In this document: positions 6,963-38,568 of the stretch, piece after piece
Layout of the letters: every line of letters begins with the position of its first letter
Numbering within the stretch: position 1 is the stretch's first letter
From: Paludibacteraceae bacterium
GTDB taxonomy: Bacteria > Bacteroidota > Bacteroidia > Bacteroidales > Paludibacteraceae
Assembly: GCA_017649925.1 (NCBI GenBank)
Contig: JAGCFX010000047.1
Coordinates: forward strand, 32,867 to 96,866
Direction of reading: 5' to 3'
DNA length: 64,000 bases
The notes under the pieces: model-generated
What the model saw: only the letters and a program-made list of their open reading frames with translations
The model's database searches: none
Told to the model about the DNA's origin: nothing
Program-made: the position numbers and the translations under genes

Positions 6963-9218
6963 CTACTTGATCAGTTTTCCTTGGGCATCGTAGGTATGCT
7001 CGCCGCGGAGGATGAGGACTTGACCATCACGGAGGACCTTTTGCATATTCTCGTTGGACTCCGTTTGGTCAACACCTTGCGAGGAAGGCATGGTGAAATC
7101 TATGGACTTTGTGAAAAGAACAGAATCATCATTCTTCTTGGCCGTTATTGTATAGGTGTATTTAGCACCCGCCTCTAAGCCTTCAACTTTATATCTCCAT
7201 CCTTTGGCAGTTTGCGTAGCGGCAGGAGTTTGACGGCTTTCTCCATTGCGGGAAGGCATGTAATATCTTTTGGAAATGAGTAAACCGTTTTCATCGAACT
7301 CAAGTGTACAGATCAATTCGCCGTTTTTCTTGATGTCAATCGTATAGACAACTGCATTCTCAACTGCAGGCCACTCTAATATAACACTATTATCCTCTGA
7401 CGGAGTCGCAGTCACATTAGATGTCGCAGTTTCGTCTGCGCATGAAACGGGTAAAATATATCCAAAGGCGTCCCAATGGGATGCTGTTTTGTATAACTCA
7501 ATACTTTGAGCCGGCACATACAATGGTATATAAAAACGAGTCTCATCAAAAACTGAATTGTCTTTTGGCACTGGAGGTGTACTTGCCAAACATGTCACAG
7601 AGGTTAAACTCGTGCAAAACATAAAAGCATAATACCCCAAACTAGTTACGCTATTGCCAATTACCACAGAGTTTAAACCGCCGCAACTTTCAAAAGCACG
7701 GTCTCCAATGCTTTTGACGCTATTGGGGATCGTCACAGATCTCACCGACATGTGATAGCAGATATCTTCCGGAATCTCCTCTACACCATTTCCAAAAACA
7801 AAGGAAGTTACTTGAGTTCCAAAATGATAGCAATTGCAATTTTTAGCATTCCATACCACGGAAGTAAAGTTGCCTCCTTTGAAAGCATCTTGTCCAATAC
7901 TTTTGAGGCTGTAGGGAATAGTTATAGAAGTCATCAAACCGGTACTCTCTTTAAATGCTTCATCCCCAATGCTTTCAACCGAATTCTCCAAGGTGAGAGA
8001 GGTTAAACTAGAGCATCCGCCGAAAGCAGACCGACCGATATTCGTGGCGCCGACAACTACTGAGGTTAAACCTGTACAGTTAAGGAAGGCCTCAGTTTTG
8101 ATACTTGTAACATTATTGGGGATTTCGATAGAGGTCAAACCTGTGCAGCCTTTAAAAGCCCCCTTTTCAATGCTTTCAACCGAATTTCCAATCGCTACAG
8201 AGGTTAAACTATTGCAACCATAGAAAGCATACTCTCCAATGCTTGTGACGCTATTGCCAATAGTCACAGAGGTCAAACTGCGGCAATGATAGAAAGCATG
8301 CCCTCCAATGCTTGTGACGCTATTGGGAATTTCAATAGAGGTCAATCCAGTGCAACCCCAGAAAGCCTCCTCACCAATACTTGTGACGCTATTGGGAATT
8401 TCAATAGAGGTCAATCCAGTGCAACTAGCGAAAGCAGAAACTCCTATGCATTCAACGGAATTCTCAATAGTCACTGAGGTCAATCCGCTGCAACCAGAGA
8501 AAGTGAGCCGCCCCGTGTTTTTGGCGCCGATAATAACAGAGGTCAAACCATAACAATAACAGAAAGCCCAATCTCCAATGCTTGTGACGCTATTGGGAAT
8601 TGTCACAGAGACCAAACTGCTGTCGTTCTCGAAAGCCTGCTTTCCAATGCTTTCAACCGAATTTTCCAGAGTCAGAGAGGTCAAACCGGTACAATCTTTG
8701 AATGCATAATCTCCTATACTAGTGACGCCAATGATAACAGAAGTTAAACTTCTGCAACCATAGAAAGCATGGTCTCCAATGCTTGTGACACTATTGGGAA
8801 TTTCAATAGAGGTCAAACTAGCGCAACTATAGAAAGCACTATTTCCAATGCTTGTGACGCTATTTCCTATCGTCACAGAGGTCATACCGTAGCAATAAGC
8901 GAAAGCATTTTCTCCAATGCTTGTGACGCTATTGGGAATAGTTACTGAAGTTAAATCACGGCATTCATAGAAAGCATTTTCCCCAACGCTTGTGACGTTA
9001 TATGTTTCAGAATTATAAGTTATTGAAGCAGGAATAACTACTGCGCCGGAATATTCATTTGAATAGGTACTAGGCTTACTTCCACGATATGTAACCGAAG
9101 CCGTTTTAGTACTACTATCAAAATCGTACCAGATTCCGTCCACTTGTGTGTTAGAGGCTAAAATTGTTCCTGCGCTTGCAACAAGCGCGAGGAAAAGTGT
9201 AAAGATTTTTGTTTTCAT
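6963..9218 (-). CDS. secreted BspA-type leucine-rich repeat protein with IRDGQ-like C-terminal tail
   Basis: A protein of 751 residues with a signal peptide (MKTKIFTLFLALVASAGTILAS). Residues about 60-560 hold some twenty LRR_5 (BspA/TpLRR) repeats of 23 residues with the pattern LTSVTIPNSVTSIGxxAFxxC. A fibronectin-like domain follows (about 590-700: TATPSEDNSVILEWPAV ... YTITAKK). The protein ends with the tail KVLRDGQVLILRGEHTY-DAQGKLIK, which is shared in pattern with four other secreted proteins of the window. BspA proteins elsewhere bind host matrix proteins or other bacteria; that role is inferred here. It begins 24 nt after the DUF2971 gene and is followed by a strong terminator. The 69-nt DNA repeats could change copy number by recombination. 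Confidence 0.9.
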   Translation of the reverse strand: MKTKIFTLFLALVASAGTILASNTQVDGIWYDFDSSTKTASVTYRGSKPSTYSNEYSGAVVIPASITYNSETYNVTSVGENAFYECRDLTSVTIPNSVTSIGENAFAYCYGMTSVTIGNSVTSIGNSAFYSCASLTSIEIPNSVTSIGDHAFYGCRSLTSVIIGVTSIGDYAFKDCTGLTSLTLENSVESIGKQAFENDSSLVSVTIPNSVTSIGDWAFCYCYGLTSVIIGAKNTGRLTFSGCSGLTSVTIENSVECIGVSAFASCTGLTSIEIPNSVTSIGEEAFWGCTGLTSIEIPNSVTSIGGHAFYHCRSLTSVTIGNSVTSIGEYAFYGCNSLTSVAIGNSVESIEKGAFKGCTGLTSIEIPNNVTSIKTEAFLNCTGLTSVVVGATNIGRSAFGGCSSLTSLTLENSVESIGDEAFKESTGLMTSITIPYSLKSIGQDAFKGGNFTSVVWNAKNCNCYHFGTQVTSFVFGNGVEEIPEDICYHMSVRSVTIPNSVKSIGDRAFESCGGLNSVVIGNSVTSLGYYAFMFCTSLTSVTCLASTPPVPKDNSVFDETRFYIPLYVPAQSIELYKTASHWDAFGYILPVSCADETATSNVTATPSEDNSVILEWPAVENAVVYTIDIKKNGELICTLEFDENGLLISKRYYMPSRNGESRQTPAATQTAKGWRYKVEGLEAGAKYTYTITAKKNDDSVLFTKSIDFTMPSSQGVDQTESNENMQKVLRDGQVLILRGEHTYDAQGKLIK
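8311..8425 (-). repeat. near-identical 69-nt tandem repeats inside the LRR gene
   Basis: A block of 46 nt at 8311-8356 recurs unchanged at 8380-8425, an offset of exactly 69 nt (one 23-residue repeat). Looser copies continue on both sides through about 7650-8990. Confidence 0.85.
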
Positions 9219-9242
9219 AATGATTAAGAATTTAAATTGTTA

Positions 9243-9869
9243 CTATATGCGATTGCGTAATTTGCTTACTTTAAAAGAATAGTTCTGCGCTATACACCTC
9301 CAACAGCGCATCTCCTCCTTCGGCATATTTCTGCCTAAATAAACAGCAGAAATATTGACATCCATAAATGCATCATTTTGATTATCATTAACTTTTTTCA
9401 TAAAACGAATTTCTTCTTCCTTTTCGTATTCTTCTTTTCTACTACGTTTCCTTTTGTGCAATAAAGCAAATTGAACCTGCTCATTCAAACTAAGTCCTTC
9501 AAAAACATTTTTGACACTGACAGGCAATCCGTCAACGTACTTTACTTTGTTAATAGATACAGTCGAATCATTGCAAGTAAACGCAATACACAAACCCATT
9601 CCATCTTGCGCAAATCTACTCCACATATACTGATTATACAATTTGTTTGAGGCGCATCCTATCATATAAGTTTTTTTCTCACGTTTCAATCTTGCCCTAA
9701 AAATATCATCTAAAGGTTTATCTAGAAGAAAATGACCTTCCTTCTTATCATTAATTCCGCTTACTTTCGTGTACGGACACATGTAGATTTTTTGTGTAAT
9801 GAGTGCTTGCCTACAATATTTTCGTTTTTTGTTGGACGAAAGGTTGTAAAATTTATAATATGTCTTCAT
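9243..9869 (-). CDS. DUF2971-like protein
   Basis: A protein of 208 residues that begins MKTYYKFYNL. The centre MWSRFAQDGMGLCIAFTC fits the DUF2971 signature (W-S-x-[YF]-A-x-x-x-x-G-[LF]-C-I-x-F). The acidic KEEEIRFMKK near residue 155 fits the second conserved block (E-x-E-x-R), and GINDKKEG resembles the N-terminal NDPFE site. The function of DUF2971 is not known; members are often found among accessory genes. The gene is clearly richer in A+T than its neighbours and has many AAA and AAT codons, which hints at transfer. It lies between the RNA candidate upstream and the BspA gene 24 nt downstream, and I see no clear promoter of its own. Confidence 0.65.
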   Translation of the reverse strand: MKTYYKFYNLSSNKKRKYCRQALITQKIYMCPYTKVSGINDKKEGHFLLDKPLDDIFRARLKREKKTYMIGCASNKLYNQYMWSRFAQDGMGLCIAFTCNDSTVSINKVKYVDGLPVSVKNVFEGLSLNEQVQFALLHKRKRSRKEEYEKEEEIRFMKKVNDNQNDAFMDVNISAVYLGRNMPKEEMRCWRCIAQNYSFKVSKLRNRI

Positions 9870-10229: not shown

Positions 10230-10235
10230 CGGCTG

Positions 10236-10276: not shown

Positions 10277-10303
10277 AAAAAAGCCGCTCAATATGAGCGA
10301 CTT
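10277..10303 (-). terminator. terminator that overlaps the last codons of the 10288-12087 gene
   Basis: On the minus strand AGTCGCTCA / TGAGCGGCT with a 3-nt loop is followed by six T. The TGA stop codon at 10288-10290 begins the right arm, and the left arm encodes Ser-Arg-Ser. The core is the same as in the terminator at 6843-6872. Confidence 0.8.
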
Positions 10304-12087
10304 CCTTGTACATTGTATATTTTTCCGTTGTACATCAGATAGAGTTGTCCGTCACGGATGAACTTTGTAGCCTCTCCCGACCTCCCCTGAAGGGAAGGGG
10401 ATTCAATATCCTCAGGATCAGGATCTGTAGGGTCAGTTGGATCTGTCGGGTCCGGATCTTCTGGATTAGGGTCATCCGGCATCTCTCCGCTATGCGCATT
10501 ACCAACCATCCGAATGGATGCTAAACCGCCGTCGCCGCTGCTCTGCGCAGAAGCGATGGTCAGCATAAAGGGTGCATCCTGCTTCACGGCGAGGGTTACG
10601 CCTGCTTTCACGAACTTGGTCTTGGAGCCGAACTCCACGCCATTGATATAGAAACGGACGTTACGCTCATTATTGCCGCCGGCTTTCAAAATGACGGTAT
10701 CGCATGCCGGTAAAAAGAGTTCCACATGTGTCTTGCCGGCTATCTCGCGGCTGTAGTCATCGTCGGTCTTGGAGAACTTCCATTTCTTGGTGCTGTCCCA
10801 TCCGTAAGCACTCTTTATCCAACTGCCTTCTGAGCCGTCAAACACCATTTCTTTGTCCGTAAAGGCGACCGGCATAACAGCTTTGATTTCCATCGTATAG
10901 GTGTCTGCTGTGCCTTTGAGCGGCGTGACGGTCACGTTGTTATCAGTCTGCAGCCATGTAGCACCTTCGCTCAGCAGGTAACTCTTCACGGTCGGAGCCG
11001 TCTGTCCTGCCAGATACCAACCGCGGATGATTGTCTCGCCTTCGTTGATATAAGCGCTGTAACTATTGGATAAGATGACCTCATGAATCTCTTTCAGCGT
11101 GGAGTCAATCGCCGTCTCTTCCGGGTCAGTAGGATCAGTAGGGTCCGGATCTTCGGGCGTGGACGAACCACCGCCGCGCACGTACTTATAGATAGGTGTA
11201 TCTTTCTTGCTGTCGCTGGTAGTATAGAAGGTGTCCGAATCAGCCCATGCCAACGATTCGCCCTGTTCCTCTTTCTTGTACGCCGCCACCTGCACAGGAC
11301 GCCGTTTGGCGGTCTCGCTGAGGCTTTCCGAACCTTGGCGTTCCCATAGCAACACGTATTTCTGATTCTTGACGGCCATCCATTTGCCGTCCGGCGTGAT
11401 ATCGCCGCCACAGCATAGTTCAAAAGCCGAACCGGTACCCAAATCGCACACTTTGGTCAGCATCTGCAAATTGGTGCCGTAGTCGGTCTTGAAAGGCAGT
11501 TTGAACAATGCGCAAGGATCACCTTCTACTTTATCAACAATGTATAGCATTTGCTCCACATTGTCATACATCAGAGTCTCTGTGTTATGCGCCTTGCCGT
11601 CAGGATAGCCGAAACGGATATAACTCACGTTCATCGTCTGTGTGCCGCTTGCAATAGCAGGCTCTTCGAAGAAATAGATGTAATACTGGTCCTTATACTC
11701 CAATTCGTTGTCGCCGATAGCGCCGAGGAACACGTAGTTCTTGCCGCCGTAGATACCCGTGGCGATATCTTCCCAGTCGTCGCGGTCGGAACTGCCGCTG
11801 TTGATATTCAGCGTCATCGTCAACGTGCCGTCCGGCTTGATAGCGACTAACCGGCGGTTCTCGTCAAGGTTCTCGTCGCCATGAGCCCAGAGATAACCTG
11901 CAGTGGTGCGCGAACAAGCCATTCCACTCGTCTCTTTCATCGTCTTCTTGCCCATCGTACCGCATTCGGTGCGTGTGAACTCGTTGTTTAGTTCCAGGGA
12001 AGTGCCATCGTAATTGATGCCGCTTGCCGACCATACTGTAGAGGCGATCAATAGCCCCAATGCAGCTGTACAAACTCTTTTTTTCAT
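10288..12087 (-). CDS. secreted propeller-like protein with DPTDPT linkers and C-terminal RDGQ tail
   Basis: A protein of 599 residues from ATG 12087, giving a signal peptide MKKRVCTAALGLLIASTVWS; the longer upstream frame runs into msrA. Residues about 25-300 look like a beta-propeller (repeated strands such as LVAIKPDGTLTMTL, GGDITPDGKWMAV, LLWERQG). An acidic proline linker follows (PEDPDPTDPTDPEE), then a domain with an HVELFLPACDTVILKAGG strand that may bind carbohydrate. A second DPTDP linker leads to the tail KFIRDGQLYLMYNGKIY-NVQG-SRSY. The linkers are 9-nt repeats at DNA level. A GC-rich intergenic-type repeat (10370-10401) encodes SPSLQGRSGEA just before the tail. The gene starts 13 nt after msrA and is the last gene of the tdk operon. 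Exported role unknown. Confidence 0.85.
   Translation of the reverse strand: MKKRVCTAALGLLIASTVWSASGINYDGTSLELNNEFTRTECGTMGKKTMKETSGMACSRTTAGYLWAHGDENLDENRRLVAIKPDGTLTMTLNINSGSSDRDDWEDIATGIYGGKNYVFLGAIGDNELEYKDQYYIYFFEEPAIASGTQTMNVSYIRFGYPDGKAHNTETLMYDNVEQMLYIVDKVEGDPCALFKLPFKTDYGTNLQMLTKVCDLGTGSAFELCCGGDITPDGKWMAVKNQKYVLLWERQGSESLSETAKRRPVQVAAYKKEEQGESLAWADSDTFYTTSDSKKDTPIYKYVRGGGSSTPEDPDPTDPTDPEETAIDSTLKEIHEVILSNSYSAYINEGETIIRGWYLAGQTAPTVKSYLLSEGATWLQTDNNVTVTPLKGTADTYTMEIKAVMPVAFTDKEMVFDGSEGSWIKSAYGWDSTKKWKFSKTDDDYSREIAGKTHVELFLPACDTVILKAGGNNERNVRFYINGVEFGSKTKFVKAGVTLAVKQDAPFMLTIASAQSSGDGGLASIRMVGNAHSGEMPDDPNPEDPDPTDPTDPTDPDPEDIESPSLQGRSGEATKFIRDGQLYLMYNGKIYNVQGSRSY
10370..10401 (+). repeat. 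GC-rich repeat inserted in frame
   Basis: A C-rich block with a CCCCT-GAA-GGG core matches, with small changes, the intergenic copy at 63258-63291. Here it is inside the coding region and read through in frame. Confidence 0.7.
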
Positions 12088-12100
12088 GATAGATATATAT

Positions 12101-12610
12101 TTATATTTTTGCTTTTCGTGCGAAGTCAAATAATGCTTTCGGCAAGTGGCAGTAGCCGTCGGGATGTTTGTCCAAATAGTCCTGATGGAACTCATCCGCG
12201 GGATAGAAATTCTGCAAGGGCAGTTTCTCCACCACTAGAGGCTGCGTGTACTTGCTCTGTTCTTCCGCATAGACTTGGGTAATTGTCGACAGGTCTGCCT
12301 CATCCGTATAATAGATGCCTGTGCGGTAGCGAGTGCCCTCATCGTGGCCTTGTTTGTTCAGGCTGAGCGGGTCGATGGCGACAAAGAACATCCGTAGCAA
12401 GAATGCCAGACTTACCTTGTCCGAGTCATACATCACATGCACGGTCTCGGCATAGCCGGTAGTGTCGGTATAAACCTGCTCGTAAGTCGGGTTCTCGGTC
12501 TGCCCGTTAGCAAAACCCACTTCGGTCTCAACGACTCCGACTACCTGTTTGAAGAAATGCTCCGTGCCCCAGAAGCACCCTCCTGCTAAATATATGTGTT
12601 TGAGCATCAT
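12101..12610 (-). CDS. msrA: peptide-methionine (S)-S-oxide reductase MsrA
   Basis: MsrA (169 residues) repairs the S form of methionine sulfoxide in proteins. The active site AGGCFWGTEHFF is at residues about 9-20 with the catalytic cysteine in GCFWG. Other family parts are VVGVVETEVGFANG, PTYEQVYTDTTGYAE and the C-terminal FYPADEFHQDYLDKHPDGYC. No MsrB domain is fused. Two adjacent ATGs (12610 and 12607) are both possible starts. The gene lies near the end of the tdk operon, between a 73-residue ORF and a secreted protein. Its neighbours do not suggest a special partner for the reductase. Confidence 0.96.
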   Translation of the reverse strand: MMLKHIYLAGGCFWGTEHFFKQVVGVVETEVGFANGQTENPTYEQVYTDTTGYAETVHVMYDSDKVSLAFLLRMFFVAIDPLSLNKQGHDEGTRYRTGIYYTDEADLSTITQVYAEEQSKYTQPLVVEKLPLQNFYPADEFHQDYLDKHPDGYCHLPKALFDFARKAKI

Positions 12611-12871: not shown

Positions 12872-12872
12872 A

Positions 12873-19876: not shown

Positions 19877-20893
19877 ATGATATACAAAGACATAAATAAT
19901 GCATTGACGCGAATCACTCGCTCCTACGAACAAGTGGTTGCAGTGGCGGATGTGAAGCTTCAGAAAAATGATTTTCACTTACCGACTTTATGGCTGGAGA
20001 CAAGTGAGGAACGGAAGAGTTTGCAGACCATAGAGGAGATTTGGTATTTTCTGTTTGCACAAGGAGTGACGCGTCGCGGTTTGCTCGTTGCTATCGGCGG
20101 TGGTGTGCTGACCGACCTTGCGGGTTTTGCTGCAGCAACCTACAAGCGCGGCATTGACTATGTCAATATACCAACCACTCTATTAGCCATGGTAGATGCC
20201 TCATCGGGCGGAAAGACAGGCTTTAACTATCATGGTTTAAAGAACAGCGTAGGTGCTTTTCATGCTCCGAAAGAAACGCTTATATGCCCGCAATGGCTCA
20301 AGACACTGCCATCCGATGAGTTTCTCAGCGGTTTCGGCGAGATGCTGAAGACCGGACTGATAGAGGAATCGGGAAAACTCTGGCCTCAACTATTACAATA
20401 CGACCTGGAGACTATGGATGTTGAGACGCTGACTCCTCTAATTGAAACGTGTGTGCGCGCGAAGGAACAGATTGTTACGGCTGATCCGCACGAAGAAGGA
20501 TTGCGTAAGATACTGAACTTCGGTCATACGTTCGGTCATGCGCTGGAAGAGGCTCAAAGTGTCAATCGTCCATCATCCAAGCGCCCATTGCTTCACGGCT
20601 ACGCCGTGTTGTACGGTTTGATAGCCGAACTATACCTGAGTGTTACCAAACTCGGCTGTCCGCGCGAGCCGCTGCAACAATTGACGCAACTGATGCTGCA
20701 TTATTACGGTCGGCCTCAATGCAATTGTTCCGACCGCGAACAGTTGATTGCTCTCATGCAACAGGACAAAAAGAATGAGCGCACAGCCGAGATCAACTGT
20801 ACGCTCCTTCACGATGTCGGTTCGCCCGTCATCAATCAGGTCATTACACCCGCTGAAGCGAATGAAGCCTTAGAGTATCTTTTCTCCCTGTAA
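19877..20893 (+). CDS. aroB: 3-dehydroquinate synthase
   Basis: AroB (338 residues) closes the ring in step two of the shikimate pathway, using NAD and a metal ion. Family motifs: AIGGGVLTDLAGFAA, GIDYVNIPTTLLAMVD, SSGGKTGFN, SGFGEMLKTG and the metal-site stretch NFGHTFGHALE. I chose ATG 19877 because the longer frame begins with TTG inside the -7 box. The gene stands alone with its own promoter. Its last 24 nt overlap the end of the secreted protein gene on the other strand. Confidence 0.97.
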   Translation: MIYKDINNALTRITRSYEQVVAVADVKLQKNDFHLPTLWLETSEERKSLQTIEEIWYFLFAQGVTRRGLLVAIGGGVLTDLAGFAAATYKRGIDYVNIPTTLLAMVDASSGGKTGFNYHGLKNSVGAFHAPKETLICPQWLKTLPSDEFLSGFGEMLKTGLIEESGKLWPQLLQYDLETMDVETLTPLIETCVRAKEQIVTADPHEEGLRKILNFGHTFGHALEEAQSVNRPSSKRPLLHGYAVLYGLIAELYLSVTKLGCPREPLQQLTQLMLHYYGRPQCNCSDREQLIALMQQDKKNERTAEINCTLLHDVGSPVINQVITPAEANEALEYLFSL

Positions 20894-22906
20894 GGTATAA
20901 AGTCCGTTTTCTGTTTGCACCAACACTACGCCATCACGCATGATAAGGCGTGCGTTACTACCGGTAGATGTGTTGTTAAGACCTTCTTCCGAATCAGTTG
21001 GATCCGTTGGGTCAGTAGGATCTGTCGGGTCGGTGGGTTCGGAATAGTTCTCCTGTTTGACGATATACAGCGTTACCACGTCATAATCATAGCTGACGAT
21101 GACATAGGTTTTTGTCGGCACGTCTTTTGTGAAACTCGACAAGTTGAACTTATTTGTTACGGCATACTCTTTGCCTTTGTAGGTCAGGGCAGTCCAACTG
21201 CTGACTACGGCACTATCCAACAGCAGATAACGGCACACGTCCGCCGAATCGATGACTGCCGGTGCTTCTTCAGGCAGCACTTCTGCGTTCTTGCCTATCT
21301 TGAATTGCTCTGACGGCGAGATCTCCGGCACGCCGAAATAATTGATATACCGTCCCGTCACACCTGACAGCGGGTCGCCGGCTTTGACGTCTGCGCCGAA
21401 ACGCTTGCCTGTCTCACCATTACCGCGGTCGAAGAGCAACATGCTACCCGTCTCATCGCGCACATAAATATAATTGTCAAATTTCTTGGTCACCACCACG
21501 TCCTTCAGATAAACAATCGTGTAATCTTCTTGCGTCACGGCTTGGTTGATTGCCATCGGCGCAAGGCGGTGCAGAATGATTGAGACGCTCGTTGTCGCGC
21601 TGCCGGAACTCAATACCAGTGTGTCAATGTATGTGCCCACGTTCGGAGCATTGTAGGAAATCGTCAGATTATCTCCATCGCGATCGATCGTCGCTGCAGA
21701 AAGCGAGAAGATATCGCCGTGCTTGAGCGTAGCCGAAATATCTTGCGTTAATTTATTGGCATTGACGGCAATCGTTCGTTTGCCAGTCGGTTCAATCATT
21801 GTTCCGAAATTGACGAACGGCGCCACAATAGCCTCTACGTCACCGATAGCTTCTGTGCGGCGATATAGACAAACGGGTGTCTGCGAGCGGTCGGCATAGC
21901 AAGCAAAGAGCGTCGGATTGTTTGATGCGTTGTATTGAATGATCTTACCCACACTATTGCCGAGGTTGGTGATGACTGCTTCTCCTCCATTCTCAATGAC
22001 AATTGACCAATAGCCGTAGTTGCCGTAGGTTTTCTCATCCACTACGTCAGTCCATAACGCCAGACGATTCTTCGTCTTTCCTCCTGAAGCTACCAGATAG
22101 GCTTCTTCATAACGAATCTCGTCTTGGAAGATAAAGGATTTTTGCCCGTTCAAATCGGCGATTCTTAATGTATAGATCGCGCGATCGTCGGGTTCCACCG
22201 TGTTGCGGTCATTGGAGTATTTTCCGGCGATGGCATGAATATTATTCACACTCTCATATTCGTCAAAATATCCCATGATATAGTTCACGCCGTTCTTGGA
22301 GACGCCGAAAATGACTTGGTCGGAATCCTGCAACTGATTCACATCCGTAACGAGTTGATAACTATCCATCGTGAAGGCGGAACTACCCGCTGCCGAACGG
22401 ATAGAGATGGTGTTGATATAGATGGCATTTTCCGAGCAGTCTACCCAGAATTTGATCTTGCCGCTCTGCGGTGTGGTGTATAGGATAATTGAGTCGCGAT
22501 TCCATACGCCTTCTCCACTCGCCGCGGGTTTATTGACGGTAATGGTCTGCTCCGAGTTACTGCCTACTTGCACATGAATAACACCTTTGCCATTACTGCT
22601 GTTTTGGCAGAAATTGATAGTAACACGTCTTACGTCCGTAAACTCTTTTACTGATGTTGCGCCTGCAGTAGACGTGCCTTTTTTGACGCCCACACCGCAC
22701 GAATAGAGACGTCCGTCAGCCGCAGATCGACCAGCGCTGTATTCAGAAGCTGCGCTATCACATTTCCATCCGTCGGTAGTACCATCGCATACGGTGGCAT
22801 CAATCTTACTCTTCCATTCTTTGGATGTGAAGGTGTAAGTCGTTATGCCCGCCATCATAGTCAGCGAGACGAGCATAGAACATAGCGTAAAGAGAATCTT
22901 TTTCAT
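20870..22906 (-). CDS. secreted multidomain protein with DPTDPT linker and RDG tail
   Basis: A protein of 678 residues with a signal peptide (MKKILFTLCSMLVSLTMMA). Residues about 20-170 form a beta-rich domain (TITVNKPAASGEGVWNRDS) that may bind ligand. A second part (YQLVTDVNQLQDSDQVIFGV) is the same kind of module as in the 1709-residue protein. Then come a chaperone-like beta domain (TIDRDGDNLTISYNAP) and an OB-fold-like region (TIVYLKDVVVTKKFDNYIYV-RDETG). A (PTD)n linker leads to the tail RLIMRDGVVLVQTENGLY-TLQGEKIL. It starts 11 nt after phoH, so it is the last gene of the lpx-glnS-phoH run. Its 3' end overlaps aroB by 24 nt. Function unknown; probably surface or extracellular. Confidence 0.85.
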   Translation of the reverse strand: MKKILFTLCSMLVSLTMMAGITTYTFTSKEWKSKIDATVCDGTTDGWKCDSAASEYSAGRSAADGRLYSCGVGVKKGTSTAGATSVKEFTDVRRVTINFCQNSSNGKGVIHVQVGSNSEQTITVNKPAASGEGVWNRDSIILYTTPQSGKIKFWVDCSENAIYINTISIRSAAGSSAFTMDSYQLVTDVNQLQDSDQVIFGVSKNGVNYIMGYFDEYESVNNIHAIAGKYSNDRNTVEPDDRAIYTLRIADLNGQKSFIFQDEIRYEEAYLVASGGKTKNRLALWTDVVDEKTYGNYGYWSIVIENGGEAVITNLGNSVGKIIQYNASNNPTLFACYADRSQTPVCLYRRTEAIGDVEAIVAPFVNFGTMIEPTGKRTIAVNANKLTQDISATLKHGDIFSLSAATIDRDGDNLTISYNAPNVGTYIDTLVLSSGSATTSVSIILHRLAPMAINQAVTQEDYTIVYLKDVVVTKKFDNYIYVRDETGSMLLFDRGNGETGKRFGADVKAGDPLSGVTGRYINYFGVPEISPSEQFKIGKNAEVLPEEAPAVIDSADVCRYLLLDSAVVSSWTALTYKGKEYAVTNKFNLSSFTKDVPTKTYVIVSYDYDVVTLYIVKQENYSEPTDPTDPTDPTDPTDSEEGLNNTSTGSNARLIMRDGVVLVQTENGLYTLQGEKIL

Positions 22907-30364: not shown

Positions 30365-33300
30365 TTATTTCACTTGTGTGCCGACTGCATTATACATCTT
30401 GTCATCATAGATGATAAAGAGTTGTCCGTCGCGAATAATTTTGCGTGGTTGTCCGGCGCAGTGAGTTTCGTTATTGTCAATATCTGTTGCTATTTGTGGT
30501 TCTTCTTTTGCTCGACGAACGAGAAGTAAGAATCGGTCGTTAAGCATTCCGCCATCGGCAGTAAATACATAATTGGAGTGTAATAAATCCGTAGATGTTT
30601 GTTCTTGAATATCAATCAATTGCAATGTATCTACCGCCGAGATGTTGTACTGCTTTGCATCAAAGGCGAATGTATATGTACCGAAGGAAGGAAGCATTAC
30701 CCCTACAGGTATTGCATCCACTGCATCTTCGTCAGATAGGGCATGGAACGCCAGTTCGTTTCTCGCCGTATCCAAGGTGTACAGATTGAGACGGCCGTTA
30801 TTGAACATTTTCTGCAAATCTGCGCCAATCTCATAAGCCTTTGTATATTCTTCCGCAAGCACTATTCCCGTGCGATCCGACTGATCATTGCCGGTTAATG
30901 TGATACCGGTTCGAACAGGTTTGTCTTCTGCTTGCAAGAAACGTTTGTATGCCGGCATAGCCGAGACATTCATATTGCTCTCGAATTTCAAACCAGACCC
31001 CGAGTTAATTTGTACGAAGACTGCTTGGAACGGGCGAAGCGTTTTGCTTGAAGCCAATTCTTGCGAGTAGGTGTTCTCTTCCGGGTCAAAAAGAGTGACA
31101 TATGGCACTTCCGTGGGACGTCCTTCGTCAAGAATCCAGAATCGTGTCCAAACACCATCCACAATCTCTTTTTTCCATGCGCCATTTCGCAATCCTGTAA
31201 CTGTTCCTGTTGCATAGGAGTGCATGTAGGGGTTACCAATGAGGTTCCAGCCGGCATGTACGTCGTTACGCGGATTACTTACAGACGAAGCCACAACACT
31301 GCTTACTTTGTATCCTCCGTCACGCTCTTGCGGAAGCCATGTAGCCACAGGCGGTCTCATCGTAAAACGGTAGACGCGTTTTTTGTGCGTGTAAGGTTGC
31401 CCGCTGTGAGTCTGTCCGTTATAATTGATATGTGCCTGATTGTCTATACCAAACAGGTATCCTTGACCGTATTTCATCGTATAGTCATTTCCGGTAGCCG
31501 CCACTTTCGTCCAATACGGGTAGTTCTGTACGCCGGCATTCGCATCATCAGCGCGATGAGCGCCATCATAGTAATACACGAAGAAATTTGTATTATAAGC
31601 AGGGATACCGCCGTTAGCGGCTACGTTGGAGTAAGAAATCTCCTGCAGTTGCGTATTAAACGGCAATGCCACCCAATAGAAGCGATCTTCCGGAATGCGC
31701 AAATCATAATACATTTCTTCGTTCTTTAGAATGATAGAGCCGGAGTTGTTCAGAGTGACAGACGGAGCACTTTGGTCACCATTGGCGTCTAATACCAACG
31801 AATTGACGGTCAAAGTTACACCATTGCTTACATTCAGTCCTGCGCCATCCTGTACCGTAAGTGTATGTACGCGCCGGTTCTCGCTGATTGTCAGCGTGTC
31901 ACCTGTCATTATGACCACGTCGCAAGAGGAACAATCGTCTCCACCGAAGAGAGTAGAAGAAGTCATGTTCTGATCTACGATGTACGGGATTTTGAGAACG
32001 GTGGTCTTGTCAGCCCATGTAACGGATTGTGGCGAACAAGGTGCCAATTCCGGATCTGACGGATTATATTTGAAGGTAAATGTACCTTCTTCGTCGTTAA
32101 AAGCAGGATAACCGATGGCACCAGCCATAGTAGGATCGCCATCCAGCACATAAGATTCGACGGTAACAAAGCCTCCATCCGGCGTGATGGCCCAATGGAT
32201 AGCATCCACGTCTTCTATACAAGAAGGATACGTATGGTAAACTGCTTCCTGTTGATAGAAATACAGACCTGCAGATCCTGCAGTGGCGTAATCGACCAAG
32301 TGGAAATAAGTGCCGGAATATCCCAAGTATTTCACACCCTCATTGGAGCCAAGATAGTTCTTATTGGAACGCACTACCACTTTTTCTCCGACCATGGTTA
32401 TCAGGAAATTGTCATATGCACCATCATCCGCGGGTGTAAGACGTGCGTAATCGTCTCCGTCATGGCTACTCAAATCCAGGAACACTTCGTTGGCATGATT
32501 ATATAATTCATGCTCTCCGGCCCTTCCTTGTAAACGCCAATCAATGGTTTCGTCAGTATTGGTAATCACGTTTCCGGAAGGAGAAACGGTAACCGCCGCT
32601 ATATAATTGGAGTTATAAGGAGTATTACTCAATGCCTTGTTGTTTGCGCCATTCGTAATGATGTAGTTGACTCCCATTTTCAGTTCATCCGTAGAGGATA
32701 TCTTCTTGTAGGTATCTTCGCGCACATAATAAACAGCATATAAAGTAGAATTGTTGGATGTCAGCGAATAGTGAGAACCGGCGGGATATAAATCCACCGT
32801 CAAAGCGTCGGACTCATCTGTAATCGGCGCTTTTGCCCAACCGGCAAAGGTCCAACCTTCTTTGGCACAGTCGGAGTTTACGTACGCATTGGGCAATACA
32901 ATATCTGCGTAAGCATATTCTTCAGTCAGCGATGAGGCTCCGGAAGTACCATTACCTGCGTCAAAATAAACAGTAAACGGATCGCAGTGCGGCCATGATG
33001 TGAATTCTTTCATCTGGCGATACAGGAAACATTGCACGTTGCTGGAAGTGCTTGCCGAGAATTTGGTGCCATCGTAATACAGATAGCGACCGGAGGTGTT
33101 GCCTTGTATGCTGAGGTTTAATGCAGAGGCTGAACGGGTTACTGTAAATTCCGTAGCAGTCGCATTGGTTGTCAGTGCACCGGAACCGGTGTTGATGTTC
33201 AAATATTTGCCAACAGAATCATTATAGAATGTCCATGCATTCTCACTGCCCCCTAATTGCCACATAACGGCAGAATCGCGGGCGATGATATACCATGAAC

Positions 33301-35494
33301 TGCCATCCTGCGGAGATTCTGCTACGGCAGCACTTAGCGTAGTTGCATTATATGGTTCTGCGCTTATTTCATAATCATATGCTCCGGTATAGTATGTGAT
33401 AACGTAATTGTCACCCACCACCATGTTGGTCGGATAGGAAATAATACGGAATTTTTCTATTTTGCGTTTATATACGGCAAATAAGTTTACTCCGTCTCTG
33501 GAAGGAACGTAATGCCCGTTATGCAAACCGGTAAATTCCGCCTCTTCAACAGATGCCAAATCGCCGCCTTCCAACCATCCGACAAACTCCCATCCTTCGT
33601 CCGGGCAACGCGGTGTGGCTGATGGCAGGTAGAAACCTGCACCTGCGCCATCTTCTTTCCGTTCTTCAGTTACCCGCCCTGCAATGCCGCCGATGTTTCC
33701 ACCGCAAGCATTGAGTGTGATGGTGTATTCTGTACAGTGCGGATAAGAAGTGTAAGTGGATATTGTGGCGGTGGTTTTTTTGAATATGTAAAACATATAT
33801 TGAGCACTGGCGTTTTCATAATTCCAAAATTCCCCATCTTGATAAACCAACCGATTGTTGCCATTGGATATCGCCCATCTTTCTCCACTTAAATTTAAAG
33901 TGAGTGCAACTCTGTCTCCGATAATCTTCCAATCCCAAGGGTCTTTGTTTTTAGCGCGTGTTTTACTTGGATTTATATACAAAGAGGCATTTCCTTCGCT
34001 TCGAAGCCGTCGGTTAGGATTGTCCCATCTCCATTCGTATTGTGCCTCTTGAGCTCCGATAATTTCACCTGCGGTATTTACTACTACAGAAGCATCGGCA
34101 AATACGCCATAGTAATGATTTGTGCCATCCCATGGAGAAGAAGGTACTTGATTGTTGCTTAGTGGATAATAATTGTCTCCGTCTTTGGCTACAATAAGAT
34201 ATATCCCATTGTTATCAAGCGGTGATGTGGTAACTTTTGTATATGCTGTGGTAGAGACGGATTTTGCGTATACGGCATATAGTTTCTCTCCATTGAAGGC
34301 GGGGTGGTACACCGAACCCGCAGCATGTAGCCCACCCGGCAAGGTTGATGTTCCTTGAATAGGCGTCTCGGTACTCCAACCGGCAAAGGTCCATCCTTCG
34401 CAATCAACGCCCGCAGGTCTTGAGGCAGACGGAAGTATAATACCTGCGCCGGGATTCGTCTCTGTGGAATCAACGGTGTGGTTGGCGGAAGTTCCAATGA
34501 AACCATCAATAGCATCCAAATGAATTGTCCAATCTTCGCAATTGGGGTAAGAGGTGTATGCCGATTCTTTTTTGAAAAGGTAAAAATTCCATGTATTATA
34601 CGTTAGTGTTTGGAAATAATCGTCGTCGTCGTCGCTATATGTCAGACAATACCCATTATCAGCACGGAAATTGAACACACCATTTGCCGCAGAAATGGCA
34701 AATGTGTTGCCGGTAGCCGCTAAGAGGTGATCATTGTAGTCGGGGGTATATTCGTATAGATTGTTGTTGTATACAAAAGCGGCATCGGCATAGTTGCTGC
34801 TGATGTTCAATGATTGGCTGTTGAAATTATTGGTAAGAGTCCATGCATCCTCGTCCCCTCCCAATGTCCATACAATGGCATCATTCGGATTATCCAAAGC
34901 GCCGCCATCCGGGTAAACCTGTTCTGCCGACAAATGGTAGCGTGTGGCGTATATATCACAATCTTCATATCTAGCAGGTCTTGTTGAAACCTGAATAGAA
35001 GCAACGTCCCCCGTTGCATATACGTAATAAGATTCGCTTTCTGAGTTTCCCAGCGCAAAATAAGACGGGCCGTAGTAAACATCTCCGTCCCATTCGTAGA
35101 AACAGGTTAGCACATATTGGTCGCCGGCATGAAGGTCTTTTACGGACGTGATGCGCGTGAAACGGTTGGCTGCAATGCCGGTCTTCTGATAAACAGCATA
35201 GAAATTGACGTTCTTTGTCGGATTTACCGACGTAACAATTGATGAAGTCGGATTTTCGTCTGCAGCAACAGGGCTTCCTTTTTTCCAGCCAATGAAGTTA
35301 TAGTCACGGCAACCGGTTACAGAAATACCGCGGTTAGACAAAATGGTATCCAATCTATATGATTGACCCGACTGAGCTTCGTATGTCAGTATGTTATGGC
35401 CGTCCGCATTGAAACTCAGAAGAACGACCTCGGCGAAAGCGGACGAGAGAGTCGTCAGAAGAGCTATCGCCAGTGTGTATATACGCGTTCTCAT
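30365..35494 (-). CDS. very large secreted repeat protein with IRDGQ tail
   Basis: A protein of 1709 residues with a signal peptide (MRTRIYTLAIALLTTLSSAFA). At least four cycles pair two modules: a GWxFxGW ... LYAVY module like the Listeria-Bacteroides repeat (for example CEGWTFAGWSTETP, REGWEF-like CPDEGWEFVGWLEGG), and a beta-rich module with YVIT or YIIT near its start (DQYVLTCFYE, DNYVITYYTG, VNYIITNGAN). Near residue 1200 a parallel beta-helix-like part follows (LTVQDGAGLNVSNGVTLTV), then a domain with HAGWNLIGNPYMHSY, typical of type IX-secreted proteins. It ends RKIIRDGQLFIIYDDKMY-NAVGTQVK. It has its own promoter and a 110-nt leader with a hairpin. A surface adhesin or glycan-binding role is a guess. 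Confidence 0.88.
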   Translation of the reverse strand: MRTRIYTLAIALLTTLSSAFAEVVLLSFNADGHNILTYEAQSGQSYRLDTILSNRGISVTGCRDYNFIGWKKGSPVAADENPTSSIVTSVNPTKNVNFYAVYQKTGIAANRFTRITSVKDLHAGDQYVLTCFYEWDGDVYYGPSYFALGNSESESYYVYATGDVASIQVSTRPARYEDCDIYATRYHLSAEQVYPDGGALDNPNDAIVWTLGGDEDAWTLTNNFNSQSLNISSNYADAAFVYNNNLYEYTPDYNDHLLAATGNTFAISAANGVFNFRADNGYCLTYSDDDDDYFQTLTYNTWNFYLFKKESAYTSYPNCEDWTIHLDAIDGFIGTSANHTVDSTETNPGAGIILPSASRPAGVDCEGWTFAGWSTETPIQGTSTLPGGLHAAGSVYHPAFNGEKLYAVYAKSVSTTAYTKVTTSPLDNNGIYLIVAKDGDNYYPLSNNQVPSSPWDGTNHYYGVFADASVVVNTAGEIIGAQEAQYEWRWDNPNRRLRSEGNASLYINPSKTRAKNKDPWDWKIIGDRVALTLNLSGERWAISNGNNRLVYQDGEFWNYENASAQYMFYIFKKTTATISTYTSYPHCTEYTITLNACGGNIGGIAGRVTEERKEDGAGAGFYLPSATPRCPDEGWEFVGWLEGGDLASVEEAEFTGLHNGHYVPSRDGVNLFAVYKRKIEKFRIISYPTNMVVGDNYVITYYTGAYDYEISAEPYNATTLSAAVAESPQDGSSWYIIARDSAVMWQLGGSENAWTFYNDSVGKYLNINTGSGALTTNATATEFTVTRSASALNLSIQGNTSGRYLYYDGTKFSASTSSNVQCFLYRQMKEFTSWPHCDPFTVYFDAGNGTSGASSLTEEYAYADIVLPNAYVNSDCAKEGWTFAGWAKAPITDESDALTVDLYPAGSHYSLTSNNSTLYAVYYVREDTYKKISSTDELKMGVNYIITNGANNKALSNTPYNSNYIAAVTVSPSGNVITNTDETIDWRLQGRAGEHELYNHANEVFLDLSSHDGDDYARLTPADDGAYDNFLITMVGEKVVVRSNKNYLGSNEGVKYLGYSGTYFHLVDYATAGSAGLYFYQQEAVYHTYPSCIEDVDAIHWAITPDGGFVTVESYVLDGDPTMAGAIGYPAFNDEEGTFTFKYNPSDPELAPCSPQSVTWADKTTVLKIPYIVDQNMTSSTLFGGDDCSSCDVVIMTGDTLTISENRRVHTLTVQDGAGLNVSNGVTLTVNSLVLDANGDQSAPSVTLNNSGSIILKNEEMYYDLRIPEDRFYWVALPFNTQLQEISYSNVAANGGIPAYNTNFFVYYYDGAHRADDANAGVQNYPYWTKVAATGNDYTMKYGQGYLFGIDNQAHINYNGQTHSGQPYTHKKRVYRFTMRPPVATWLPQERDGGYKVSSVVASSVSNPRNDVHAGWNLIGNPYMHSYATGTVTGLRNGAWKKEIVDGVWTRFWILDEGRPTEVPYVTLFDPEENTYSQELASSKTLRPFQAVFVQINSGSGLKFESNMNVSAMPAYKRFLQAEDKPVRTGITLTGNDQSDRTGIVLAEEYTKAYEIGADLQKMFNNGRLNLYTLDTARNELAFHALSDEDAVDAIPVGVMLPSFGTYTFAFDAKQYNISAVDTLQLIDIQEQTSTDLLHSNYVFTADGGMLNDRFLLLVRRAKEEPQIATDIDNNETHCAGQPRKIIRDGQLFIIYDDKMYNAVGTQVK

Positions 35495-35552
35495 AGAAAA
35501 AAGTGAGTTAGTCTTTTTATATCAAATTTGCGACCCTAATAAAAACACAAAC

Positions 35553-35580
35553 ACGCGGCATCTCGGTAAGAGACCAGCGT
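35553..35580 (-). other. hairpin in the leader of the 1709-residue protein mRNA
   Basis: On the minus strand ACGC/GCGT, GG/CC and TCTC/GAGA pair around a 5-nt loop, with small bulges. It lies between the promoter and the start codon; no regulator can be named. Confidence 0.45.
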
Positions 35581-35610
35581 AATTCAGGTAAATAGGGCTA
35601 AACTTGGGCG

Positions 35611-35642
35611 CAAAGGTACAATATTTTTCTGAAATATGCAAA
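35611..35642 (-). promoter_or_regulatory. promoter of the 1709-residue protein gene
   Basis: On the minus strand TTTG (35639-35642), 20 nt, TACCTTTG (35611-35618). Between 35643 and 35816 I see no gene or clear element. Confidence 0.8.
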
Positions 35643-35816
35643 TTTTTTTACGAAAAAGACGCAAATTTGTGCATATTTGTCATGTACGCATAACAAAAGC
35701 AGGATCCAAAATCACAGGATATATACATAGTATATATAAGGCGAGTGGGATACGATATTGGCTCGACAAGCGCAGCACACTGTCTCTATGTGCGAAGCAT
35801 CGAACGGTGTAATTAC

Positions 35817-35855
35817 AAAAAAATCCCACATACGCGGAGGCATGCAGGATTTTTT
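35817..35855. terminator. terminator after the 896-residue protein gene
   Basis: AAAAAAATCC (35817-35826) pairs with GGATTTTTT (35847-35855). The A and T runs on both sides let it work for either strand; the leftward gene at 35878 is the likely user. Confidence 0.7.
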
Positions 35856-35877
35856 AAAAATTAGATTACGGGATAGT

Positions 35878-38568
35878 TTACTTAACCAATGCACCTTGGA
35901 TGGTGTAAATGCGCTCGCCGCGGATGATAAACAACTGTCCGTCACGAATAACCTTAACCGCTTTCTCTGCAGGAACAAATGTATTCTCTACATCGGTCGG
36001 GAAATCCGCATTCTTGCCAATCCAAATATGAGTGCGATCTGAACCATCAAAATAGCTGCCCTCCCAGGTGAGCATAGGCCATGTGGGGGCATCGTAACGC
36101 AATGCAACGCCAGCCCCAAGAGTCAATTGATTACAATTGATCGCAACAAGGGAGGGATCGCAATCCTCGATAGCGGCGCGCAAATCTGCGTTATTGACCG
36201 TCAAGTGGCCTACAATCATTCCAATGGAGATGGCTGCTGCAGCGGCGTGGTGGGTAGTAGCAAGCAACGTCATGTCTTTCACGCCTAGGTTTTCTGAATA
36301 GAGATCGATAGGCATGAAGGCAGAACCGTCTGCTTCTACGTCAATAGATAAATAGGGCGCAGAACCGGAACCTACAATGTCTAAATCAACCATCGAACTG
36401 ATACCATGGATTTGGTCACACGAAATAACACTCGTTCCTTTTACCTCAATAGTCAATTTGTCATCAGGGATAGTAAGTGCATAAATAGCGTTAGCCGCTG
36501 CTGTAATAATCCTTGCATTGTCAAGCGTCAGTTTCTTGTTGGCTTCATCATAACTGATTTTGCCGTCACCCAAAATATCGCTCTTGTTCAGTTTTGTCAC
36601 ATTTACACCGGCAACTTGTAATGAGGCACTGTTATCCAAATCCTTGGCAACGAAAACTACTTCGCGAATTTTATCTGAGCTTGCTGTTTTCCATTCTACC
36701 TCGTGCGTGCTGGTATTGATTTGCAAATCCAGACCATCCAATTCGATGTTCTCGTTTAATTCAACAGGTACGTTCTCTAAAATGTCAGCGGAAGTACTGG
36801 TATTGGCATTGCTAACAACAAGATTGGCATTAACGATTAGTTTCTTGGCTTTGATAGCCGGAGCATCGAGATAAGTAGATTCTCCCCAGAGGCTGAATTT
36901 ATTGACACCACGGAATTCCACATCAGCGCCGGTGGCATCAATGATTGCTTCCTGATCGTTATTATCTGACCTCATGTTAATTGTGCCGGTGGTAGAACCC
37001 ATTTTGCTGATAATAGTCAGTTTGTGGTCTGTTCCATTAGTCATCTTAATAACCTCGTTATCATCAGAATAAACAGAACCTGGAATACCTTCAAATACAA
37101 TCGTTAAGTCTTGGTCGTCAACCTCCACTGTTGGAGTAGTCGAGCCTATATCCAGATCGGCTCCTTCCGCAACAGTCAGCGTTTGGGTGTTGTGATTATA
37201 ACTGATTTTTCCGTTTCCCATAATATCCGACGCATTGTAAGGGAATACAGGAATGGCATTTACACTGAGGGGATAGCCATCCGTATTAATCTCAATCGTC
37301 GTCATTGGCGAACAAGACGGTTCGCACATAGATTGGTCGATGAAGCCGCCATCATAGGGATCGAAAATGAACGGACCGCTTCCCATGCCTACAACTGCGC
37401 AATTCTCATAGTTGACACTTGCAACACCGCTAACATTCTCCATCTCAACGTGACTGTTGATGAAAGACAAGTTGACGGCGCCGGAACCTACCCCTTCCTT
37501 TTGAATGGAATAAGCACTGCCACCAAAAGTCATGATATTGGCTTTGTCGAAAATGATTGTAATGGCACTTGTGCCCGGCTCTGCTACGAGCGCACTTGCA
37601 TAGGCCGTAGTAATACTTGTTTCGGGTCCGCCGGTGATTGTTAGGTTGGCTGTTGTTTTAATAACAGGCTTTGTGTCGTTGTTAATGCTTTTGTAAGTCC
37701 CGCCCTGCAACGACAATGTGGCGGGAGTAGAGAAAGTTAAGAATGCTTCATCTCCGGTAGACGAGATGTTCTCGTCCTTTAGCGTCAGGATTTTCTTGGA
37801 AGCATCCCATGTGTCGCCTACACCGTTTTGCAGCACGTCATTAACGGTATAGTTGGTGATCGGTTGACCCAAAATCAGCACGTCTGAAATCTCTTCAACG
37901 GACATCCCCGGCGCAATAATCATGTGGTTGTGATCGGCTATACCATTCGGGTTGTTCTGCAAATCATACACAAGCATTGTCTCTGTATAAGATATACTAC
38001 TCTTACTACAGCCAATGCCCCTATCATCTATGCCGCCCTGAGCATCTATGAAAGAACCTGCTTTCGCATTAAGCGCACTACAATCAATAGCATCGTCAGA
38101 ATCACTGGTGGCTTTAACCTTTAGGCCATCAATGTGCAATTCCTGTTGCGTACCGCTACCAAAAGCTTTAATGGCAGCACCACCCGAACCTGTATGATTC
38201 AGATTACTTACTTCCAACTCTGGGTTTTGACCAAATCCAACAATGTTTGTACGTGCTACTTGGCTATAGATAGCTCCTGCTTTAGAAGTTCCATCCAAAA
38301 TAATCGAACATTTGCCGACAACATAGATGGAGAATTCAGAGTCATCAGTCCAAGCTGGATGATACCAGATACTTCCTGTGAGATGGGCATTAGATAGTGT
38401 CAAAATGTGTGTATCGTCATCATAAGACACCGTACCATCACCGAGCACATCGTCTTCGTTGGCATCGGTGACAACAACATCCGCAACTGATAGCGGATAA
38501 TCCGTTGCCATCAAATTGACGGTCAGCAGCATCATTGCTGCAAAGAGAAATAGTTTTTTCATAAGCAT
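35878..38568 (-). CDS. large secreted protein with repeated beta modules and IRDGQ tail
   Basis: A protein of 896 residues with a signal peptide (MKKLFLFAAMMLLTVNLMA, from the second Met). Three copies of one motif mark repeated modules: DVLGDGTVSYDDDTHILTLS (about residue 40), DIMGNGKISYNHNTQTLTVA (about 465) and DILGDGKISYDEANKKLTLD (about 695). Between them lie beta-helix-like stretches (HELHID, LTIISKMGSTTGTINM). The D-x-x-G-D/N-G-x-[IV]-S-Y motif looks like a calcium loop, but binding is not shown. It ends KVIRDGQLFIIRGERIY-TIQGALVK. Promoter at 38646-38677 and terminator at 35817 make it a single-gene unit. Function unknown, probably surface or extracellular. Confidence 0.87.
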   Translation of the reverse strand: MLMKKLFLFAAMMLLTVNLMATDYPLSVADVVVTDANEDDVLGDGTVSYDDDTHILTLSNAHLTGSIWYHPAWTDDSEFSIYVVGKCSIILDGTSKAGAIYSQVARTNIVGFGQNPELEVSNLNHTGSGGAAIKAFGSGTQQELHIDGLKVKATSDSDDAIDCSALNAKAGSFIDAQGGIDDRGIGCSKSSISYTETMLVYDLQNNPNGIADHNHMIIAPGMSVEEISDVLILGQPITNYTVNDVLQNGVGDTWDASKKILTLKDENISSTGDEAFLTFSTPATLSLQGGTYKSINNDTKPVIKTTANLTITGGPETSITTAYASALVAEPGTSAITIIFDKANIMTFGGSAYSIQKEGVGSGAVNLSFINSHVEMENVSGVASVNYENCAVVGMGSGPFIFDPYDGGFIDQSMCEPSCSPMTTIEINTDGYPLSVNAIPVFPYNASDIMGNGKISYNHNTQTLTVAEGADLDIGSTTPTVEVDDQDLTIVFEGIPGSVYSDDNEVIKMTNGTDHKLTIISKMGSTTGTINMRSDNNDQEAIIDATGADVEFRGVNKFSLWGESTYLDAPAIKAKKLIVNANLVVSNANTSTSADILENVPVELNENIELDGLDLQINTSTHEVEWKTASSDKIREVVFVAKDLDNSASLQVAGVNVTKLNKSDILGDGKISYDEANKKLTLDNARIITAAANAIYALTIPDDKLTIEVKGTSVISCDQIHGISSMVDLDIVGSGSAPYLSIDVEADGSAFMPIDLYSENLGVKDMTLLATTHHAAAAAISIGMIVGHLTVNNADLRAAIEDCDPSLVAINCNQLTLGAGVALRYDAPTWPMLTWEGSYFDGSDRTHIWIGKNADFPTDVENTFVPAEKAVKVIRDGQLFIIRGERIYTIQGALVK

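Follow-up and report, generated by a model that had tools for sequence, protein, structure and literature searches.

A short C-terminal tail of exported proteins, probably a minimal type IX secretion signal, in a Paludibacteraceae-like genus

Cargo of the type IX secretion system (T9SS) is recognised by C-terminal signals of several sequence-distinct kinds. The classic, or type A, signal (TIGR04183 / PF18962) stands after a linker and comprises 70–80 residues that form a seven-strand sandwich, with motifs A to E in order and motif E last; its motif B (Lβ3β4) has the pattern Y-x-x-x-G. Solved classic domains are reported to contain a four-strand sheet in the order β4-β3-β6-β7, and work on RgpB and PorU describes two elements as required, the motif B loop and the C-terminal strand (PMC11285876). 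Signals are not always exchangeable between species: the mirolase domain is reported to have failed in the T9SS of Porphyromonas gingivalis (PMC11285876). In HBP35 of P. gingivalis, translocation of a GFP fusion was reported to depend on the final 22 residues, which hold motifs D and E, and not on motifs A, B and C (PMC3120885). Type B (TIGR04131) and type C (NF033708, ChiA) signals are described as regions of about 100 residues (PMC10202324). P. intermedia is reported to have, alongside long signals, a short C-terminal domain of 43–55 residues in which motif D follows 1–6 residues after motif B and precedes motif E; cleavage is preferred at PT/GI, with Ile as the most conserved residue, and both cleavage and C-terminal glycosylation were seen by mass spectrometry for some of the cargo (PMC11969387). 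According to that study, long and short signals had been reported together in P. intermedia alone (PMC11969387).

Here we examined a window of 64,000 nucleotides (contig JAGCFX010000047.1, positions 32,867–96,866; C46 in our numbering) from the draft genome of a Paludibacteraceae bacterium, with an estimated contamination of 4.6 %. A sequence-only reading of this DNA had pointed to five secreted proteins with different main domains and a common tail of about 25 residues at their ends. The five ORFs, all on the minus strand, do end in the tail (Table 1), a simple heuristic finds a signal peptide in each, and D/P/T repeat linkers are present in two of them (those at 10288 and 20870). The ORF of cargo 2 is open from 10288 to 12195, but the start at 12087 given by that reading is preferred, as it yields MKKRVCTAALGLLIASTVWS. 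In Pfam, one protein has BspA-type leucine-rich repeats (LRR_5), one a Flg_new repeat, and three are without a hit over the cut-off. The residues R-D-G, Y and G are invariant across the five tails. In a regular-expression scan of window ORFs of at least 60 aa in six frames, the motif stood 4 residues from the ORF end in these five only; nine further matches were all internal. Among the best stretches at E ≤ 1, neither NCBIfam nor Pfam gave a match to the tail region of the five proteins.

Table 1. Tail-bearing proteins of the window, their tails and their predicted whole signals. Bit scores are from tail model A1, which was built from these five tails.
Feature	Position	Strand	Evidence
Cargo 1, protein with BspA-type leucine-rich repeats, a signal peptide and the short tail	6963..9218	-	LRR_5 E 4.7e-130; translation
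Cargo 1 tail, 31-residue HMM match, ends KVLRDGQVLILRGEHTYDAQGKLIK	6966..7058	-	G000:C46:39832-39924, 65.1 bits
Cargo 1 predicted whole signal, from cleavage-like Q/GVDQ	6966-7076	-	prediction
Cargo 2, secreted, with a D/P/T linker before the short tail (ORF open as far as 12195)	10288..12087	-	no Pfam over cut-off
Cargo 2 tail, ends KFIRDGQLYLMYNGKIYNVQGSRSY	10291..10383	-	C46:43157-43249, 65.2 bits
Cargo 2 predicted whole signal	10291-10410	-	prediction
Cargo 3, secreted, with PTDP repeats and the short tail	20870..22906	-	no Pfam over cut-off
Cargo 3 tail, ends LIMRDGVVLVQTENGLYTLQGEKIL	20873..20965	-	C46:53739-53831, 59.6 bits
Cargo 3 predicted whole signal	20873-20983	-	prediction
Cargo 4, secreted protein of 1709 aa with Flg_new/List_Bact repeat and short tail	30365..35494	-	Flg_new E 1.2e-6, over cut-off
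Cargo 4 tail, ends KIIRDGQLFIIYDDKMYNAVGTQVK	30368..30460	-	C46:63234-63326, 68.9 bits
Cargo 4 predicted whole signal	30368-30484	-	prediction
Cargo 5, secreted protein of 896 aa with short tail	35878..38568	-	no Pfam over cut-off
Cargo 5 tail, ends KVIRDGQLFIIRGERIYTIQGALVK	35881..35973	-	C46:68747-68839, 65.9 bits
Cargo 5 predicted whole signal	35881-35994	-	prediction

The tail is abundant in the window genome far beyond chance: A1 matched its 1.98 Mb at 89 places with E ≤ 10, of which 74 had E ≤ 0.001. Of the 89, 85 lie 0–11 residues before a stop codon; 84 of these were assembled as ORFs ending at most 11 residues past the match, and the ORF of the 85th (L097) ends 3 residues past it, cut by the contig end. 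The remaining four (L058, L090, L093 and L098) are not C-terminal. Nine of the 84 ORFs are open at the N-terminal end, and 68 of the 75 complete ones have a signal peptide, 64 of them by the heuristic, versus 4 of 32 other window ORFs (at least 280 aa, any frame), and four by eye (L033, L043, L083 and L086). The seven complete ORFs lacking one are an ORF of 169 aa and six fragments of 27–75 aa. A clearly cytosolic tail protein, which the sequence-only reading had named as evidence against its proposal, was not seen in this genome. The 78 assembled ORFs of at least 100 aa were aligned on the tail Tyr, with Lys at position -16 and Ile at -7 in 72 each; this alignment was anchored by a regular expression that requires the Gly and limits the position of the Tyr, and these two columns are conserved by construction. 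After removal of near-duplicates and odd ends, 66 of the 78 were kept in alignment A2, and 105 of 120 listed tails, those of relatives included, in the broader A4.

Over these 105 tails the residues K, I, Y and G are conserved at 90 % or more while the adjoining upstream linkers vary. Such conservation makes it very improbable that the tail has no sorting role and is a functionless relic or a structural C-terminal cap, a view for which the six fragments speak, since they hold a whole or partial tail with no protein in front. It is further opposed by the divergence of the tails at the DNA level: tails on unrelated bodies are at most 80 % identical in their final 75 bases, and in the 25 closest of these pairs the next 60 bases are 23–53 % identical, so the tails are not recent copies of one another. 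Spread as a mobile DNA cassette was rejected on the same comparison, in which 262 of 3003 pairs with related bodies had been set aside, because the tails do not exceed the 80 % given above and the DNA behind the stop codon is not shared.

None of the curated T9SS sorting-domain models matches the tails. The sequence-only reading had asked whether this might be an ordinary type IX domain, and the clean TIGR04183 hit that this would imply was not found: neither TIGR04183 nor TIGR04131 matched any of the 105 tails at E ≤ 1, nor do the five whole window proteins match TIGR04183 at that threshold. The type C model NF033708 gave a single match among the 105 (E 0.15), which is at chance level and below the cut-off, and a Pfam scan of the same tails gave chance-level matches only, with no T9SS sorting domain among the 25 families listed of 26. 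TIGR04183 itself finds 12 places in the window genome, 11 over the cut-off and that of PorU included, with zero overlap with the tail places. In the open-licence literature searched, which consisted of listings with the openings of abstracts, no description of the tail was found. Like type B and type C signals, which have other motifs than the tail, it would be a T9SS signal distinct in sequence from type A. Standard models thus appear to miss about 80 exported proteins of this genome, as would follow from a shortened tag of about 40 residues with its motifs in another order.

The machinery that would read such a signal is encoded in the genome, although, as had been observed, no translocon gene lies in the window. 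SprA/Sov (2666 bits) is on contig C83, and the PorU sortase (1015 bits) adjoins PorV (419 bits, positions 35123–36196) on contig C71. We also considered a further PorV-like shuttle reserved for the tail and rejected it, the paralogue on contig C61 being PorQ (306 bits). Upstream of the tail Lys, 57 of the 78 tails have the pattern [GAS]-[IVL]-[DENSQ], versus 576 of 2920 stretches from the interior of these proteins, and in 36 of these 57 it stands 12–13 residues before the Lys; another cleavage-like pattern occurs in 62 of the 78 versus 18 % of interior stretches. The Gly/Ala-Ile motif before most tails looks like a PorU cleavage site and, counted from it, the predicted signals of the window proteins are 37–40 residues long. 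The alternatives first put forward, that the tail is a shortened sorting signal or else a separate signal for attachment, are backed by the C-terminal position, the signal peptides, the lack of TIGR04183 and TIGR04131 matches and the encoded T9SS. Within this, the idea of a shortened signal holds in an amended form: the tail occurs throughout the genome and the genus, it ends in a block similar to motif B, and the unit predicted to be cleaved off comprises about 37–40 residues.

Among 295 genomes of the order, tails were numerous only in the window genome and its congener G245 (at least 27 each). Seven genomes outside the genus had one match each, six of them at or near the C-terminus of proteins with signal-like N-termini; the single match in G192 is not C-terminal. 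All nine tail-positive genomes have SprA and none of the 17 SprA-negative genomes has the tail, but SprA is present in 278 of the 295, so this co-occurrence, which the sequence-only reading had proposed as a check, is uninformative and was rejected as proof of a link to the T9SS. In a survey of 150 genomes of the family with the A4 model, 45 had at least one match, all 13 genomes of the genus among them, and outside the genus the highest counts were 15 and 11 (raw match counts here and below). Within the genus, 11 genomes have at least 39 tails each (the window genome plus 10 of its 12 sampled congeners) with 3–14 TIGR04183 matches, versus 11 and 9 tails in G392 and G402, where TIGR04183 matches number at least 36. 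The window genome itself has 84 tail proteins or fragments versus 12 classic hits, and G041, another member of the family, combines 67 classic domains with zero tail matches. In this group of gut bacteria the classic tag of 70–80 residues thus appears to have been replaced by a version of about 40.

A comparison at a single gene points the same way. The nearest named records of the subtilase P0001 are Paludibacteraceae and Bacteroidales metagenome-assembled genomes, many from rumen and one named from pig. Judged by eye, the tail terminates the protein at 68 of the 69 loci from close relatives; these loci come from fewer genomes, some being represented twice. In the exception, L240, the end resembles the short B-D-E signal. 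Homologues were found in 10 of 17 genomes searched, and the signal differs among them: that of G245 carries the tail, those of G109, G021, G002 and G201 (33–41 % identity) end in a long domain of the classic type (a TIGR04183 match in G201, by eye in the other three), and those of G293 and G111 have a short or medium B-D-E signal like that of P. intermedia. The homologues in G105, G151 and the SprA-negative G059 have no C-terminal signal, and a second homologue in G201 (L289) has another extension. Type A domain and tail therefore stand at the same place in homologous genes, with the machinery present.

Sequence evidence thus supports the view that the tail is, very probably, a lineage-specific minimal C-terminal signal of the T9SS, and that in one Paludibacteraceae-like genus it has for the most part taken the place of the type A domain: it is C-terminal on exported proteins of a T9SS-encoding genome, its abundance is inverse to that of the classic domain, different signals stand on a homologous gene, its end resembles motif B, and its predicted fold has three strands. 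A separate display or retention system, with another receptor or sortase that reads the tail while the T9SS serves classic-domain proteins only, is improbable. It would agree with the coexistence of both kinds of signal in all 13 sampled genomes of the genus and with the lack of any T9SS model matching the tails, whose link to PorV and PorU we infer; it is hard to square with the inverse counts between genomes of one genus, the different signals on one homologous gene, the motif B common to both signals, or the cleavage-like motif of the PT/GI kind reported for P. intermedia (PMC11969387).

The resemblance to motif B was measured with hhalign. Tail columns 22–31 align to motif B of 28 classic domains (the 28 of 40 loci that passed a regular expression) with score 20.1 and probability 47.7, and 0 of 100 column shuffles reached this score (mean 8.3, maximum 15.2). 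In 61 of the 78 tails the protein stops exactly 8 residues past the motif B Tyr, and there is therefore no space for motifs D and E after B. The N-terminal half of the tail scored 9.0 against the 28 classic domains, which is not significant (shuffles with mean 6.9 and maximum 12.2), and its direct kinship with classic D/E was rejected for this reason. These results suit a collinear truncation, in which the front part of a classic domain would have been cut after motif B, with loss of D and E, and PorV would read the motif B loop; so does a stretch similar to the tail, GKLNLVTIDKTLVL, upstream of motif B in the classic domain L119 of the window genome. Such a truncation, which bears on the order of the blocks and not on the sorting role, is a possible but doubtful explanation.

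Short B-D-E signals gave a different picture of the N-terminal half. Three short B-D-E ends used as queries found, at E ≤ 1, 53 matches in G111, 30 in G211 and 22 in G293, as well as 3 in the window genome and 4 in G245. Of 30 loci, 24 passed a regular expression and 23 were used after L319 was dropped; two of the three queries are in this set, as is one protein of the window genome. Motif B of the tail matches again (20.2), and the first half of the tail scored 17.6 against the D-E hairpin that follows B in these signals, above the maximum of 13.3 in 150 shuffles, which argues against truncation. With blocks cut by regular expression after the idea of a permutation had arisen, the native order B-D-E scored 19.7 and B-E-D 19.8. 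Orders that place a single block ahead of B both reached 23.7, while E-D-B scored 27.2 and D-E-B 30.1, which likewise argues against truncation; shuffles of the first 20 tail columns reached the E-D-B score in 2 of 200 cases and the D-E-B score in 0 of 200. Blocks of the 28 classic domains gained nothing from reordering in local mode (16.6–17.9 over all six orders), as truncation would predict, and showed a small preference in global mode (E-D-B 15.5 versus B-D-E 12.9). Since the classic blocks show no local preference, D/E-like sequence before B is backed by the short signals and not by the classic ones.

Two registers are available for this assignment: D-E-B scores higher, whereas the sheet order of solved domains would favour E-D-B. 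The requirement for motifs D and E reported for HBP35 (PMC3120885) also weighs against a truncation that loses them, and it counts against a T9SS role of the tail as well, since a signal with motif B at its very end departs from the rule known from that protein. The HBP35 and RgpB/PorU requirements, as reported, would both be satisfied only if the first two strands of the tail act as D and E. We thus favour, tentatively and at somewhat short of an even chance, a permuted three-strand minimal domain in which D/E-like strands precede B and the PorV-binding surface is kept, and to which the genus would have moved most of its cargo.

The fold predicted for the tail is a three-strand meander that ends in motif B. 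In an AlphaFold2 model of a 50-residue query from cargo 5 with the 105 tails, strands occupy residues 24–29, 32–37 and 40–42, with block-mean pLDDT values of 88, 95 and 96 over residues 21–50 and of 56–62 in the linker. The same three strands were predicted in the context of the subtilase (436–440, 443–448 and 451–453), using the P0001 stretch with 57 of its 69 loci (alignment A5); block means were 70–89, and pLDDT was partly below 50 in the linker. The predicted strands sit in the last ~27 residues and do not make up a seven-strand Ig-like sandwich. A fold search of the PDB with the tail model gave nothing significant: there were 217 matches with E ≤ 10, 50 of which were inspected, and not one reached E ≤ 0.001. 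A meander E-D-β3 followed by motif B would, judging from the sheet order of solved classic domains, put the three elements in their classic places.

The short domain of P. intermedia is the nearest described counterpart, to judge from the account given of it (PMC11969387). Both signals are short, occur on signal-peptide proteins of T9SS-encoding genomes alongside long signals, have three predicted strands and a motif B with an invariant Gly, and share a cleavage site of the Gly-Ile type, which for the tail is a motif present in 57–62 of the 78. They differ in length, the tail being predicted at ~37–40 residues, and in order and spacing, the tail ending in motif B where P. intermedia continues with D and E. 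Cleavage and glycosylation were observed for some cargo in that species; for the tail, cleavage and attachment are predicted. With the type A domain the tail shares the C-terminal position after a linker and the Y-x-x-x-G of motif B, and differs in having this motif last.

A plausible route follows from the preferred reading of the tail as a T9SS signal. The proteins would be brought to the periplasm by Sec through their signal peptides and would pass through the SprA/Sov translocon, to be collected by the PorV shuttle through the tail. The end of the tail would serve as motif B (Y-x-x-x-G-x-x-V-K), the loop which classic signals cannot do without, and the two preceding strands would probably stand in for D and E, which would imply a permuted order, with D/E before B. 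PorU may then cut at the [GA]-[IVL]-[DEN]-like motif ~12 residues ahead of the tail, and the cargo would be either released or joined to surface polysaccharide. Most cargo of the genus would have moved from the type A domain of 70–80 residues to this tail.

TIGR04183 is in common use for the prediction of T9SS cargo, for instance in a study of rumen Bacteroidetes (PMC5831590), and predictions based on it miss the tails. The f111 genomes and the genus with the tail would extend the coexistence of long and short signals beyond P. intermedia, the species to which the published account confines it (PMC11969387). If the signal works as proposed, its element of ~25 residues would be among the smallest T9SS signals and would bear on two questions raised in P. 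gingivalis, whether motif B or motifs D/E are recognised and whether the order of motifs matters; the series of classic, short B-D-E and B-last short signals at homologous genes makes these questions testable. A permutation, if true, would mean that PorV reads a three-dimensional surface rather than the order of the C-terminal sequence.

Six open reading frames of 27–75 aa in the window's own genome end in the tail, the C-terminal element of about 25 residues under study, without a preceding protein or signal peptide (L029, L044, L048, L051, L061 and L089, the last retaining only the final part of the tail); these are gene remnants, frameshifts or assembly errors. Elsewhere in this genome, the tail-bearing genes L037 and L059 are convergent and their stop codons meet, so that the tail-coding DNA of one gene immediately follows the stop of its partner.

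Several tail-bearing genes have a GC-rich, repeat-like stretch as the linker that joins the cleavage-like site to the tail; it encodes peptides such as SLQGRSGE, PSGEGWGE, SLKGRG and similar ones. The stretch appears to resemble an interspersed REP-like element, presumably inserted in frame.

Positions of the linker stretch and of the convergent gene pair
Feature	Location	Strand	Also in
GC-rich repeat-like linker	window 10371-10400	minus	L017, L018, L020, L021, L031, L087
Convergent tail-bearing genes L037 and L059	G000:C61:32732-32910		

Classic type A sorting domains (TIGR04183) predominate in two of the 13 sampled genomes of the window's genus, G392 and G402, which carry 11 and nine tails, respectively, and may represent an intermediate or reverted state. 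Six genomes outside the genus each have a single tail, placed at the C-terminus of a secreted protein or close to it (L170–L175, in G151, G108, G068, G201, G111 and G293), which hints at a low-level presence of the tail across the order. The carrier from G201, which we take to resemble C10 peptidases, contains PVNPETATTIAARYMG close to its N-terminus.

In G111, G211 and G293, three genomes of a different family (f111), many proteins terminate in short B-D-E signals that resemble the Prevotella intermedia type (loci L301–L330); at a threshold of E<=1, the matches number 53, 30 and 22, respectively. Classic domains were few in both f111 genomes checked (seven in G111 and one in G293). The P. intermedia-type signal may thus not be unique to that species.
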